Origin: a virus
Direction: 5' to 3' (one strand)
IMG/VR virus record: IMGVR_UViG_3300005532_000039
Span: 1 to 25,457 of that record
Length of the DNA: 25,457 nucleotides
Part shown: one piece after another, positions 4,496 to 25,337 of the stretch
Layout of the letters: each line of letters opens with the position of its first letter
Numbering within the stretch: the first letter of the stretch is position 1
Position numbers and translations under genes: made by a program
The notes under the pieces: model-generated
The model's database searches: none
Seen by the model: the letters and a program-made list of their open reading frames with translations, nothing else
Told to the model about the DNA's origin: nothing

Positions 4496-4583
4496 AGCAG
4501 GAGCCAGGAGTGAGGATCGAGGATCTAGTCTTGCTCGATCCTCACTCCTGGCTCCTCACTCCTACTCGATGTGAAAGGATCGT
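4481..4583 (+). repeat. Hairpin insertion flanked by exact 13-bp direct repeats
   Basis: GTGAAAGGATCGT occurs at 4481-4493 and again at 4571-4583, exactly 90 bp apart. Between them is a hairpin with perfect 23-bp arms (4499-4521 and 4534-4556) and a 12-base loop, made of heptamers of the AGGATCG / AGGAGTG type. A weaker outer pair is GAGCAGGAG at 4495-4503 with CTCCTACTC at 4560-4568. The first 13-mer encodes the end of the upstream protein; the second supplies AAAGGA, the ribosome site of the chaperone gene. Without the 90 bp, the upstream stop would be TGA overlapping the next ATG. This looks like an insertion with a target duplication (inference). Confidence 0.75.
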
Positions 4584-9182: not shown

Positions 9183-9193
9183 AGAGAGTGACG

Positions 9194-9270
9194 AGTGACA
9201 AGTGACGAGTGACGAGTGACAAGCAAAACCCGCTGTCTTTCTTGTCACTCGTCACTCATCACTTGTCACT
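9194..9270 (+). repeat. Hairpin of opposed heptanucleotide repeats
   Basis: Arms at 9194-9223 and 9241-9270 pair at 29 of 30 positions around a 17-base loop. Each arm is a run of heptamers AGTGACG / AGTGACA. It starts 12 bases after the fibre stop. No T-run follows on the + strand, so it is not a classical intrinsic terminator, though it could still stop or process transcripts. AAAGAG occurs just outside both ends (9181-9186 and 9272-9277), possibly a short target duplication, but too short to be sure. Confidence 0.8.
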
Positions 9271-9340: not shown

Positions 9341-9601
9341 ATGGACTGGGTATCGCTCATTCATTCGCTGGGATTGCCCACGGCGCTGCTCCTCCTCATC
9401 CTGATGGCCTTGGGGCGCGCGGGCGTATGGGCCGCCAACAACCTCATGAAGCCGCTGGTGGACAAGCACATCGAGTTTTTGGACAAGGCCATCGAAGCCA
9501 ACGACAAGATTGCCACGAGCCAGGCCGAGATCACCAGGGCCCTGCTGACAATGAATGATCGCCTGGATCGACTGAGCAAGGAGGCTATGGCTCATGCCTA
9601 A
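9341..9601 (+). CDS. Holin-like membrane protein
   Basis: The ATG at 9341 follows GGAGGAGAGG and gives 86 residues. Residues about 8-28 (LGLPTALLLLILMALGRAG) form one membrane segment, followed by a charged helix with coiled-coil character (VDKHIEFLDKAIEANDKIA to MNDRLDRLSKEA). One N-terminal membrane segment plus a charged helix resembles small phage holin or BhlA/XhlA-type proteins. It is the first gene after the fibres, the usual place for lysis genes. Its stop lies inside the next gene (8-base overlap). The holin role is inferred; no experiment-level motif exists. Confidence 0.55.
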   Translation: MDWVSLIHSLGLPTALLLLILMALGRAGVWAANNLMKPLVDKHIEFLDKAIEANDKIATSQAEITRALLTMNDRLDRLSKEAMAHA

Positions 9602-9740
9602 AGTGACGCGACTGGCTGTGCCCTTCTTCCTGTCCGTGGGCCTGGCCGCTGGCGTCCTGGCCGCGAGCCTGGCCGGTCGGCCCACAACGCAGCTGGCCGG
9701 CGCCGTCGAGGTGCAGGTGCCGACTACAGGCGCCTCCTGA
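9594..9740 (+). CDS. Signal-peptide-like small ORF upstream of protease
   Basis: This 48-codon ORF starts at an ATG overlapping the holin-like gene. The product has a basic start (MPKVTR), a hydrophobic core (LAVPFFLSVGLAAGVLAA) and a small-residue end (SLAG), as in a signal peptide or signal anchor, then about 20 polar residues to TGA at 9738. The frame after that TGA is the same as that of the protease at 9798 and stays open all the way into it. It could be the true N-terminus of the protease, read through or interrupted, or a separate small lysis peptide. Confidence 0.6.
   Translation: MPKVTRLAVPFFLSVGLAAGVLAASLAGRPTTQLAGAVEVQVPTTGAS
9738..9740 (+). other. In-frame TGA between signal peptide and protease
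   Basis: TGA is followed by C (TGAC), a context known to terminate poorly in bacteria. Nineteen sense codons, Pro- and Ser-rich, connect it in frame to the GTG at 9798. The protease has no ribosome site of its own. TGA ends many other genes here, so this is not a changed genetic code. Readthrough, reinitiation, mutation and sequencing error all remain possible. Confidence 0.5.
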
Positions 9741-9797
9741 CTGACCCCGCCAGCGCCTCGGTCGGAGGCGCCGTCTCAGGACAACAGCGACAACAGC

Positions 9798-10979
9798 GTG
9801 GCTAACTGTGTGGTCAATGTCTGCTGCGATACCCACTACGGCGGCTCGGGCACCTCCATTTACTGCGAGAACGCCGGCGTCATCATCAGTGCCGCTCATG
9901 TGACCCGCGGCGCTCGCTCGGCCCGGATCACTTTCCGCAGTGGCCAGTCCTATCACGCCCAGGTCCTCGCCGCCGAGGAGAGCACGGATCTGGCCGCCCT
10001 GTGGTTCAGCCCCGAGGGCAACGTGCCGCGCACGGCCGTGGCGGCGCAGGCCCCACCGCGCGGCAGTCGTGTCTGGAAGATCGGCTATCCCGCCGGGCGC
10101 TCGAGCTTACAGCGGCCCAGCATTCTCTCGGGGCAGCTGCTGCGCTGTGAGGGGCGGCTCTATGCCCATATCGAGGTTTACAGTGGGGACAGCGGCGGCG
10201 GTTACTTCAACGACCAGGGCGAGCTGATCGGCGCGGTCACCGGCTATGAGAATGGCCAACATGCGCCGTCGTTTGGTCCCGGCACCGCCCAGCTGCAGCG
10301 CTTCGTCACCGAGGTCTGCAAGCCGCGTCTGCGGCGCCAGCCGCCACAACCTGGCAACCCCGGTGGCCTACCTGGCAAGCAACCTACCAACCCGGGCCCG
10401 AGTGCTGGCCCTCCGGATGGGATCCATCCACCTGCGCCGGCCCCGGACCCGGCCCAGCCTCAACCCCGCCCCCCCAGTGTGCCACCGCCACAACCTAGCG
10501 TTCCGGGCTGCCCCTGCGATCTGTCCCTGATCATCCAGCGGCTTGAACGGCTGGAAGCTTCCCTCCAGGCCCGCCTGGAGCAGATTCAGAAGATGCCAGG
10601 ACCTGAAGGCCCGGCGGGTAAGGAAGGTCCTGCAGGGAAGCCCGGAGTGCCTGGTCCGCAGGGGGTGCCAGGTCCTCCGGGTCCTGCGGGACCTCCCGGC
10701 CCGGCCGGGAAGGATGGCCGCGACGGCAAGGATGGCGGCGCCGTAGTGGCCGAGCTATCGGCCCGCGTTGAGGCCCTGGCCGCCGCACTTTCCGCCCGTA
10801 TCGACGAGCTGGCCAAGCACGGCCCAACAGCACCGCTGGAGGTCGAGCAGATTAAGAAGATCCTGGCGGGCACGGGCTTCACCGTCGATGTGGTCGATAG
10901 CCAGGGCGCCATCATCCAGAGTCAGCAGGTGCCTCTGGGCGGCACGCTGAAGCTGCAGCTGCTGCCCAAGGCGAAGTGA
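9798..10979 (+). CDS. Trypsin-like serine protease with collagen-like stalk
   Basis: The 393 residues counted from the GTG at 9798 contain a complete trypsin-fold triad: His34 in ISAAHV, Asp64 in ESTDLAAL and Ser132 in YSGDSGGG. A Pro-rich linker follows (about 178-238), then a short coiled coil (241-265), then fifteen uninterrupted Gly-X-Y triplets (268-312), then a second coiled coil (316-340) and a small beta end. This would form a trimer with protease heads on a collagen-like stalk. The GTG lacks a ribosome site; the frame is open back to the TGA at 9738, beyond which lies a signal peptide. It sits where an endolysin is expected. Export, wall degradation or virion attachment are inferences. 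Confidence 0.8.
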
Positions 10980-11566: not shown

Positions 11567-12100
11567 ATGACGGCACAAGAGGCTCTGGCCGCCCGGCGGC
11601 TGGAGTGGAAAGATTGGTTCGTGCAGGCGATGGCCTTCGGCTATGCCCAGACCGATGCCCTGCGCCGCGCGGCTGCTGCCAAGGGGATGGGCTTGGACCT
11701 CGCACAGTTCAGCCGGCCATTTCCCGGCTCACCGATGACACAGACCATCACGGACAATTCCGTCAACGCCGCCCCGCCGCCCGCGGCGGTGCCGGCAACG
11801 GGCCCGAGTGCCCAGGCAGGCACTCTCTCGGGCCCTGCCCCAGGTCCGGCCCCCGAGCGCCTCCCGCATGGGCCGGCGGCCAAGCCCAGCAATCCCCTGG
11901 CGATCATGGCGCTGACGGCGGCCACGCTGCTGGGCGGTACGGCCCTGGGCGCTGGCGTCGTCGGCCTACTGCGCCCAACGCAGCAGTCTCCTCAGATCAT
12001 TCAGCAGCCGGCGCCACCACCAGCACCGACTCCGCAGCCAGAACCCCAGCCTTGTCCTCCACTCAATGACAGAGACTGGCAAATCAAGATCGTCCCCTGA
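11567..12100 (+). CDS. Proline-rich single-pass membrane protein
   Basis: This 177-residue protein starts 7 bases after its neighbour. Residues 1-50 are helical (WKDWFVQAMAFGYAQTDALRRAAAAKG); 55-108 are Pro/Ala-rich and disordered; 110-136 form one hydrophobic segment (LAIMALTAATLLGGTALGAGVVGLL); the end is again Pro-rich (QPAPPPAPTPQPEPQP). The stretched Pro-rich arms on both sides of a membrane segment recall spanin- or TonB-like wall-spanning proteins. I infer a periplasm-spanning accessory of the lysis region, with low certainty. Confidence 0.5.
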   Translation: MTAQEALAARRLEWKDWFVQAMAFGYAQTDALRRAAAAKGMGLDLAQFSRPFPGSPMTQTITDNSVNAAPPPAAVPATGPSAQAGTLSGPAPGPAPERLPHGPAAKPSNPLAIMALTAATLLGGTALGAGVVGLLRPTQQSPQIIQQPAPPPAPTPQPEPQPCPPLNDRDWQIKIVP

Positions 12101-12113
12101 AAGGAGTCCTCTT

Positions 12114-12584
12114 GTGCGTAGCTTGTGCCTCGCCCTTCTGTGTCTGGGTTCGACAGCCCTCTTCGCCCCCGCGCAGTGCCCGTGCCAGCCGTGTCGTCCG
12201 CAAGCCTGCCAAGCCCAGGACTGCGACTGCTTCGAGGAAGCTTACGACCAGGCCGTCCGCGACAACAAGCCCTTGCTGATCTTCGTCCAGCAGAAGGCCC
12301 GCGGCATCGAGGGTTGCCTCAGCTGCTCGGTAGCCTGCTACCCCGGCCAGCGGGGCGCCGGCGTCATCATCGGCCTACCCGATGGGAAGGGCAACCTGCT
12401 GGAAGTAGCCCGCCGTGACAGCTATCCCACCGAGGCCTGGCTGCAGCGGCGTGTCGCCGAGCTACAGCGGCAACACACGAATCTGGCTTGCTACCGCCAG
12501 GGGTTTTTTCTGAGGATCGGCCTGGGCATCGTTAGCGGTCGTCCGGGCCACCCTTCCCACCATCCCCGAGGACCTTGCCGATGA
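12114..12584 (+). CDS. Exported cysteine-rich thioredoxin-like protein
   Basis: The GTG at 12114, after AAAGGAG, gives 156 residues with a clear signal peptide (RSLCLALLCLGSTALFAPA). A Cys-dense segment follows (CPCQPCRPQACQAQDCDC), then FEEAYDQAVRDNKPLLIFVQQKA, the first helix and strand of a thioredoxin fold, with CLSC at residues 68-71 at the active-site place. The C-terminal helix (PTEAWLQRRVAELQRQH) also fits. Residues after about 125 are basic and less ordered. A role in disulfide exchange outside the cytoplasm is inferred. It overlaps the next gene by 4 bases. Confidence 0.6.
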   Translation: MRSLCLALLCLGSTALFAPAQCPCQPCRPQACQAQDCDCFEEAYDQAVRDNKPLLIFVQQKARGIEGCLSCSVACYPGQRGAGVIIGLPDGKGNLLEVARRDSYPTEAWLQRRVAELQRQHTNLACYRQGFFLRIGLGIVSGRPGHPSHHPRGPCR

Positions 12585-12912: not shown

Positions 12913-12983
12913 GAGCAGGATCGAGGATCGAGGATCGAGCAGGTCTTCACTCGATCCTCGATCCTCACTCCTCGATCCTGCTC
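12913..12983 (+). repeat. Hairpin of opposed heptanucleotide repeats
   Basis: The left arm is a run of AGGATCG heptamers beginning GAGCAGGA; the right arm is the opposed run ending TCCTGCTC. The outer 15 bases pair perfectly, and the right arm carries one extra heptamer. It begins three bases after the stop of the small membrane gene and ends just before the AAGGAGA ribosome site of the next gene. The end sequence GAGCAGGA is shared with the hairpin at 4495, so the two belong to one family. Confidence 0.8.
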
Positions 12984-16089: not shown

Positions 16090-16143
16090 CACAATTGGCA
16101 CGGTGCGGTGCCTTTGCAAAGGCACCGCACCGTGCCAATTGTG
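16090..16143 (+). repeat. 54-bp perfect palindrome after int
   Basis: Bases 16090-16116 are the exact reverse complement of 16117-16143, with no spacer. It starts 42 bases after the integrase stop and ends 13 bases before the ATG of the winged-helix gene. No T-run follows on either side, so a simple intrinsic terminator is not shown. It could end int transcription through a very stable hairpin, bind a dimeric regulator, or be a palindromic processing site. Confidence 0.85.
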
Positions 16144-23773: not shown

Positions 23774-23830
23774 CCACCTGCGCCCAAGCGCCCAAAACCC
23801 CGGGGGTTTTGGGCGCTTGGGCGCAGGTGG
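23774..23830 (+). terminator. 57-base near-perfect hairpin after the helicase gene
   Basis: Bases 23774-23801 pair perfectly with 23803-23830 around one central base (28-bp arms). It starts 4 bases after the primase-helicase stop. No T-run follows, so it is not a textbook intrinsic terminator; transcript stabilising, attenuation or an element insertion are alternatives. The next gene's ribosome site lies about 22 bases beyond it. Confidence 0.65.
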
Positions 23831-24465: not shown

Positions 24466-25337
24466 TGGACAAAAAAATCGTCGTCGGCTTTTCCGGGGGC
24501 ATTGACAGCCAGGCCGTCGCACTGTGGGCGCGACAGACCTTCCCGCAGGAGGATATTCTCCTGCTCAATTCGGACGCCGGCGGCAACGAGCACCCGCTGA
24601 CCGAAGGCTTCATCCGCTGGTACTCCGTTAATGTCTTCCCCGTGACCGTCGTCTGCGCCCTGCTCAAGGACCTGGGCGACGTGGGCACGCGCGACGGCGC
24701 CACGCGCGAGCGACGGCTGACGCTCGGCGAAGAGGAGCCGTTGACCTTCGACAAGCTGGCTTTCGTGAAGGGAATCTTCCCTTCACGAAAGGCGCAATTC
24801 TGCACGGAGTATTTGAAGCTGGCACCGCAAAAGCGCTGGCTCGACGACAATCTGACCGCCCAAGGCATTCGCTATGCCAGATATATCGGCGTCCGCGCCG
24901 ACGAGTCCAATGAGAGAGCCAGCTGCCCGGAGCAGGAGTTTGATTCTTACTTCCACTGCATGCTCTATCGGCCCCTGTTCCGGTGGACCAAACAGCAATG
25001 TTTCGATTTCGTCCGTGCCGCCGGCGAGGACATCAATCCGCTCTACAAGCTGGGTTTTACTCGCGTCGGCTGTGCGCCGTGCATCAACTCCAGCAAGGCC
25101 GACATCCGCAATTGGGCGGCCCGTTTCCCCGAAATGATCGACAAGGTGAGACGCTGGGAACAGTCGGTGGGCAGGACGTTCTTTGCACCTGTGGTGCCGG
25201 GCAAGGACATCAACTGGATCGATGAGGTCGTTACTTGGTCACGGACGGAACGGGGGGGACGGCAGTTCAGCCTGCCGTTCGTGGAAGCGCAAGCCGAGTC
25301 AGGAACCTGTATCAGCAAGTATGGGCTTTGTGAGTGA
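24465..25337 (+). CDS. PAPS reductase-like PP-loop enzyme
   Basis: This 290-residue protein carries the PP-loop SGGIDS (residues 10-15), the next motif ILLLNSDAGGNEHPLTEGF, the QFCTEYLKL part (Cys113), and GVRADES (142-148), as in phage PAPS-reductase-family enzymes and DndC relatives. C203-x2-C206 (GCAPC) with Cys282 and Cys289 could hold an iron-sulfur cluster. The family activates a substrate with ATP and transfers sulfur or sulfite. The role in phage is unknown: it could be a nucleic acid thio-modification or a metabolic helper. It is coupled to zinc-ribbon genes on both sides. Confidence 0.75.
   Translation: MDKKIVVGFSGGIDSQAVALWARQTFPQEDILLLNSDAGGNEHPLTEGFIRWYSVNVFPVTVVCALLKDLGDVGTRDGATRERRLTLGEEEPLTFDKLAFVKGIFPSRKAQFCTEYLKLAPQKRWLDDNLTAQGIRYARYIGVRADESNERASCPEQEFDSYFHCMLYRPLFRWTKQQCFDFVRAAGEDINPLYKLGFTRVGCAPCINSSKADIRNWAARFPEMIDKVRRWEQSVGRTFFAPVVPGKDINWIDEVVTWSRTERGGRQFSLPFVEAQAESGTCISKYGLCE

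Follow-up and report, generated by a model that had tools for sequence, protein, structure and literature searches.

A conserved in-frame UGA followed by a SECIS-like hairpin may link an export segment to a trypsin-like protease in a tailed DNA phage

Why would a phage place a single in-frame UGA between what resembles a signal peptide and a secreted-type protease? This question is raised by one locus of the window, by which we mean the whole stretch of DNA analyzed, a single IMG/VR virus record of 25,457 bases (IMGVR_UViG_3300005532_000039). The features of the locus are as follows.

9341..9601, + strand: ORF of a putative small membrane (holin-like) protein, with a ribosome site; at its 3' end it overlaps the ribosome site and the start of the next ORF by a few codons
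9578..9584, + strand: Shine-Dalgarno-like AAGGAGG, recognized by sequence, 9 nt before the ATG at 9594
9594..9737, + strand: N-terminal signal or membrane-anchor segment of 48 codons, from codon usage and protein-level conservation with a relative
9737..9772, + strand: block of 36 nt identical in a diverged phage, from DNA alignment
9738..9740, + strand: in-frame UGA, the proposed recoded codon, identical in both contigs of the related phage
9741..9797, + strand: linker of 19 codons between the UGA and a GTG, open in both phages
9753..9771, + strand: SECIS-like hairpin, with arms at 9753-9759 and 9765-9771 (7 bp) and the loop GGUCG at 9760-9764
9798..9800, + strand: conserved GTG, a possible alternative restart codon, kept in both phages and without a ribosome site in the window
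9804..10325, + strand: Trypsin_2/HtrA-type serine protease domain, from Pfam and PDB matches
10326..10979, + strand: Pro-rich stretch, coiled segment, collagen-like repeats (about 10596-10736) and conserved C-terminus

The ORF at 9594-9740 encodes 48 amino acids, MPKVTRLAVPFFLSVGLAAGVLAASLAGRPTTQLAGAVEVQVPTTGAS, in which a long hydrophobic stretch comes after a charged N-terminus. The base directly 3' of its TGA is C (UGAC context), and past this stop the frame stays open for 19 codons to GTG 9798, the first GTG in frame, and onward to the TGA at 10977-10979. This layout, described in the first-pass annotation, was confirmed from the sequence, as was the missing ribosome site of the GTG: none is found at the usual distance in the preceding sequence (AGGACAACAGCGACAACAGC), where the sole AGGA lies 16 nt upstream. 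By codon usage, the signal segment is clearly coding (log-odds of +11.4, against -14 to -17 for the other two frames of the same strand). The linker scores -0.55 and is neither clearly coding nor clearly non-coding. The same annotation had called the first segment signal-peptide-like. It is indeed coding, hydrophobic and conserved as protein, and an uncleaved anchor may have these properties too; the name signal peptide is one reading of the sequence, and we refer to a signal or anchor segment. A single hydrophobic segment suggests that the ORF upstream encodes a holin-like product; this ORF had no family match in the Pfam scan.

Downstream of the stop, the open frame matches Trypsin_2 (E=8e-17) and the collagen repeat (E=1e-7) in Pfam, and the PDB relatives of the protease domain are HhoA, DegS and HtrA. 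The catalytic triad (His 9897, Asp 9987, Ser 10191) is intact. Like the HtrA/DegS/HhoA proteases (Trypsin_2, PF13365), the window protease has this catalytic domain and triad; unlike them, it has a collagen-like and proline-rich tail and an N-terminus interrupted by UGA, and no PDZ domain was found in the gene by the Pfam scan. The AlphaFold model of the readthrough protein, made from two sequences, has a mean pLDDT of 34. Downstream of the protease cassette, at 12066-12584, lies the gene for a cysteine-rich protein (CPCQPC, CDC, GCLSCS) that is 53% identical in the related phage and has no Pfam family. This protein is probably secreted and may act with the exported protease as its redox partner.

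In IMG/VR, the same arrangement was found in one other phage, represented by two nearly identical contigs from two metagenomes. This phage has the same small ORF, TGA, frame and protease, and the triad motifs AAHV, TDL and SGDSGG are invariant between the two proteins. The two phages are well diverged: identity is 71% in the protease domain, about 29-35% in the tail proteins, 30% in the integrase and 87-89% in a PAPS-reductase-like gene. Further searches of IMG/VR with protease queries, element DNA patterns, two other phage proteins and a palindrome returned only this second phage again. A scan of GTDB with the protease gave no homologues, and one with the PAPS-reductase-like gene gave nothing but a remote Phyllobacterium match. 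No close homologue was found among GenBank phages, and a query with the protease domain only, which begins after the UGA site, gave remote plasmid matches.

The comparison with this relative shows that the interruption is real and not accidental. The first-pass annotation had proposed that a conserved TGA in a conserved frame among homologues would support programmed readthrough, and the only homologue found has both, together with conserved downstream coding, which favors recoding on the evidence of two phages. The UGA-GTG linker has 19 codons in the window and 21 in the relative, a difference that is a multiple of 3. The signal segment is conserved as a protein, with 22 of 46 residues shared between the phages, as against 8 of 46 codons. 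Around the stop, DNA itself is kept: the block at 9737-9772 takes in the UGA with one base before it, a 12-nt spacer and the 7-bp hairpin with one base after it, and is the longest exact match between both genomes, longer than any within the PAPS-reductase-like gene. About one third of the positions flanking it differ between the phages. In the rest of the ORF, 31% of aligned codons are identical, and among 20,000 codon shuffles 13 produced a run this long. Because the signal segment is kept as protein and not as DNA, this freezing applies specifically to the stop and the sequence after it. No other stop in the two phages has the same conserved junction. The exact 31-nt core of the block occurs in IMG/VR solely in these contigs, and with up to 3 mismatches the block was absent from 398 Pseudomonadota genomes. 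Reassignment of TGA in the window phage was considered and is not supported, given that many window genes end in TGA and no other TGA junction is conserved.

Several other repeats were observed in the window. The second longest exact match between the phages is a perfect 15-bp inverted repeat with a 2-nt center at 24760-24791, which falls within the PAPS-reductase-like gene. Its arms are unchanged in the related phage, with the center flipped (TC versus GA), as if inverted or template-switched; as we read the two sequences, the encoded residue is Ile versus Arg. At 9186-9270, immediately before the holin-like gene, AGTGACGAGTGACAAG runs form a 36-bp, 92% inverted repeat, and AGGATCGAG inverted repeats resembling it lie at 4499-4556 and 12913-12983. 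A terminator-like, perfect 28-bp hairpin at 23774-23830 begins 5 bases after the primase/helicase stop codon. Just past the integrase gene, at 16090-16143, a perfect 27-bp palindrome without a spacer is a candidate terminator or attachment-region feature.

The hairpin in the block, GCGCCUC-GGUCG-GAGGCGC, begins 12 nt past the UGA and folds with -14.7 kcal/mol. According to a review, bacterial SECIS elements have a loop of 3-9 nt, a stem of 4-16 bp and 16-37 nt from the UGA to the apical loop, with G in the first two loop positions, usually followed by G or U, and an energy of -7.5 kcal/mol or lower (PMC13188914). The window element agrees with all of these rules, with its 5-nt loop, 7-bp stem, loop sequence GGUCG, 19 nt from UGA to apical loop and energy of -14.7 kcal/mol. 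Among the 1,894 TGA triplets of both phages, about 9% pass the loose rules, 4% also have a GG or GU loop, and 15 combine such a loop with comparable stability. In shuffled sequence, 2 of 20,122 TGAs combined a GGUC loop with a 7-bp stem and a spacing of 17-21 nt, a descriptive figure framed post hoc; the criteria for these geometry statistics were set after the hairpin had been seen. The folding energy is unremarkable for the composition (z-scores of the isolated element: window, -0.45; relative, -0.48). For the window, a longer pairing is predicted that draws in bases ahead of the UGA, and the relative cannot form it. Since the block is invariant, with an identical hairpin and zero compensatory changes, the hairpin cannot be proven by covariation. 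An Rfam scan of the element matched no SECIS or other RNA family.

The element can be compared with known systems. The E. coli fdhF gene, annotated as selenocysteine-containing and with its sequence confirmed in annotated genomes, folds such that a GGUC loop lies 18 nt past the UGA. As in fdhF, the window UGA is followed by a short GC-rich hairpin with a GGUC loop, at 19 rather than 18 nt, and its stem, loop and energy lie inside the published consensus. The window element differs in lying in a phage gene, at a linker instead of a redox site, and in showing no bulged U like that of E. coli. No cysteine was found at the UGA position in a homologue; the sole homologue that spans the site also has UGA. 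Trypsin-like serine proteases have been predicted as selenoproteins in the Global Ocean Sampling (GOS) metagenomes (PMC2398784). The window shares with these a secreted-type trypsin-like protease, an in-frame UGA and a SECIS-like hairpin. In the GOS family the predicted selenocysteine replaces a conserved cysteine inside the domain (PMC2398784), whereas the window UGA is of phage source and lies 21 codons upstream of the domain, which starts at 9804.

Since a distant phage keeps both the stop and a SECIS-shaped hairpin, the stop probably serves programmed readthrough. The explanation that we prefer, at roughly even probability, is that the hairpin directs recoding of UGA 9738, most likely as selenocysteine, and so joins the export segment to the protease. 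The locus would then be a single long gene instead of two. Ribosomes would start at ATG 9594 and make the export or anchor segment, and the conserved hairpin would redirect some of them to insert an amino acid at the UGA and go on through the linker, the trypsin-like protease and the collagen-like stalk. Because readthrough puts the export segment before it, the protease would be delivered across the membrane. The remaining ribosomes would terminate at the UGA and release a 48-residue membrane peptide. The decoder would most likely be host SelB with Sec-tRNA, the hairpin serving as a bacterial SECIS element. Selenocysteine is preferred because its insertion is the best-known bacterial process that uses a hairpin directly after a UGA, and it is better supported than generic leaky termination because the conserved 12-nt spacer and 19-nt hairpin fit the SECIS consensus. 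The gene product may thus be a viral selenoprotein, and the inserted residue may have a function of its own. The linker position upstream of the domain, the lack of a known cysteine counterpart and the small number of phages (two) weigh against selenocysteine.

Such decoding would depend on the host. No tRNA-Sec was found in the phage records, and host assignment through the integrase, primase, terminase, Cas12-like ORF and repeat stretch gave no result. The collagen-like and repeat features of the window phage suggest Planctomycetes (the Gemmata/Isosphaera groups) as host, which is our guess. Gemmata and Isosphaera have the full selenocysteine insertion machinery (PMC4807772). At about 40180-40780, the related phage (IMGVR_UViG_3300005607_000005) has a CRISPR-like repeat of 37 nt in 8 copies, separated by spacers of 37-41 nt. 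Beside these repeats, an ORF of 350 amino acids (L011:966-2018, - strand) is weakly similar to Cas12f/Cas12u3 (PADLOC E=1.6e-5), and together they could form a phage-borne miniature type V-like CRISPR system. The spacers had no matches in either phage.

Another possible explanation, which we consider rather unlikely, is programmed readthrough without selenocysteine. A near-cognate tRNA, carrying tryptophan, would read a leaky UGAC, and the hairpin would stimulate this at the ribosome entry, giving a fixed ratio of short to long product. The conservation of the TGA, the frame and the block counts for this equally, and special host machinery is not needed. There is also a precedent in the A1 protein of phage Q-beta, made by UGA readthrough that inserts tryptophan at about 1 in 15 (PMC8067240). 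Both cases have a phage UGA stop between a short and an extended product; Q-beta A1 differs in being a structural protein of an RNA phage that extends the coat protein, whereas the window UGA would join an export segment to an enzyme. However, stimulation by a hairpin directly downstream is the hallmark of a bacterial SECIS, and the likeness to fdhF in loop and spacing would have to be a coincidence. The first-pass annotation had attributed leakiness to the TGAC context alone. C does follow the TGA, but the main feature, a conserved spacer with a SECIS-like hairpin, had been missed.

It is also unlikely that the UGA terminates a 48-residue peptide and that a cytoplasmic protease is made separately from GTG 9798 by coupled reinitiation, a restart already suggested in the earlier annotation. 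Both phages keep the GTG, and in the relative a weak AGGA precedes it by 10 nt. A protein begun at this codon would contain the whole trypsin-like domain, and the codon usage of the linker, not clearly coding, would permit such a start. That the window GTG lacks a ribosome site speaks against restart, which also leaves unexplained the agreement in frame and the freezing at the DNA level of the 32 nt after the stop, in contrast to the remainder of the linker. In addition, a cysteine-containing HtrA-type protease with a collagen stalk would better suit an extracytoplasmic location.

A third alternative, that the block has no role in decoding and is instead a site in DNA or RNA (for protein binding, recombination or a small RNA) that straddles the stop by chance, is decidedly improbable. 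An exact palindrome-like block could fill such roles, and an integrase lies about 5 kb downstream in both phages. However, the block edges coincide with the TGA and the foot of the hairpin, and the block was not found elsewhere in IMG/VR or in the Pseudomonadota genomes. With integrases of only 30% identity, the two phages would not be expected to share an attachment core. Finally, a recent nonsense mutation, as the first-pass annotation had allowed, or a pseudogene or sequencing error, is very unlikely because the TGA, frame and 36-nt block are kept in the contigs of a diverged phage from two other metagenome assemblies; nothing beyond the presence of the stop favors it, and the protease, with its triad preserved, evolves under constraint at the level of the protein.

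In the open-licence papers searched, no description was found of a phage-encoded selenoprotein with its own SECIS element. The SECIS-like element itself is of a known kind; in a tailed-phage gene and at such a position, it would be a new form. That a tailed DNA phage has an exported, collagen-tailed serine protease that is a selenoprotein, dependent on host insertion at a phage-borne SECIS, is a reading that we put slightly short of even. The conserved 36-nt block is a compact unit suited to a reporter assay. For genes of this kind, standard gene callers report a signal-less protease and a tiny orphan ORF; because they begin at a false internal start (here, GTG 9798), similar viral cases would be missed. 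If the reading is true, readthrough would serve the unusual purpose of giving an enzyme its export signal through a recoded UGA, protease output would be tied to the selenium status of the host, and each failed decoding would release a membrane peptide.
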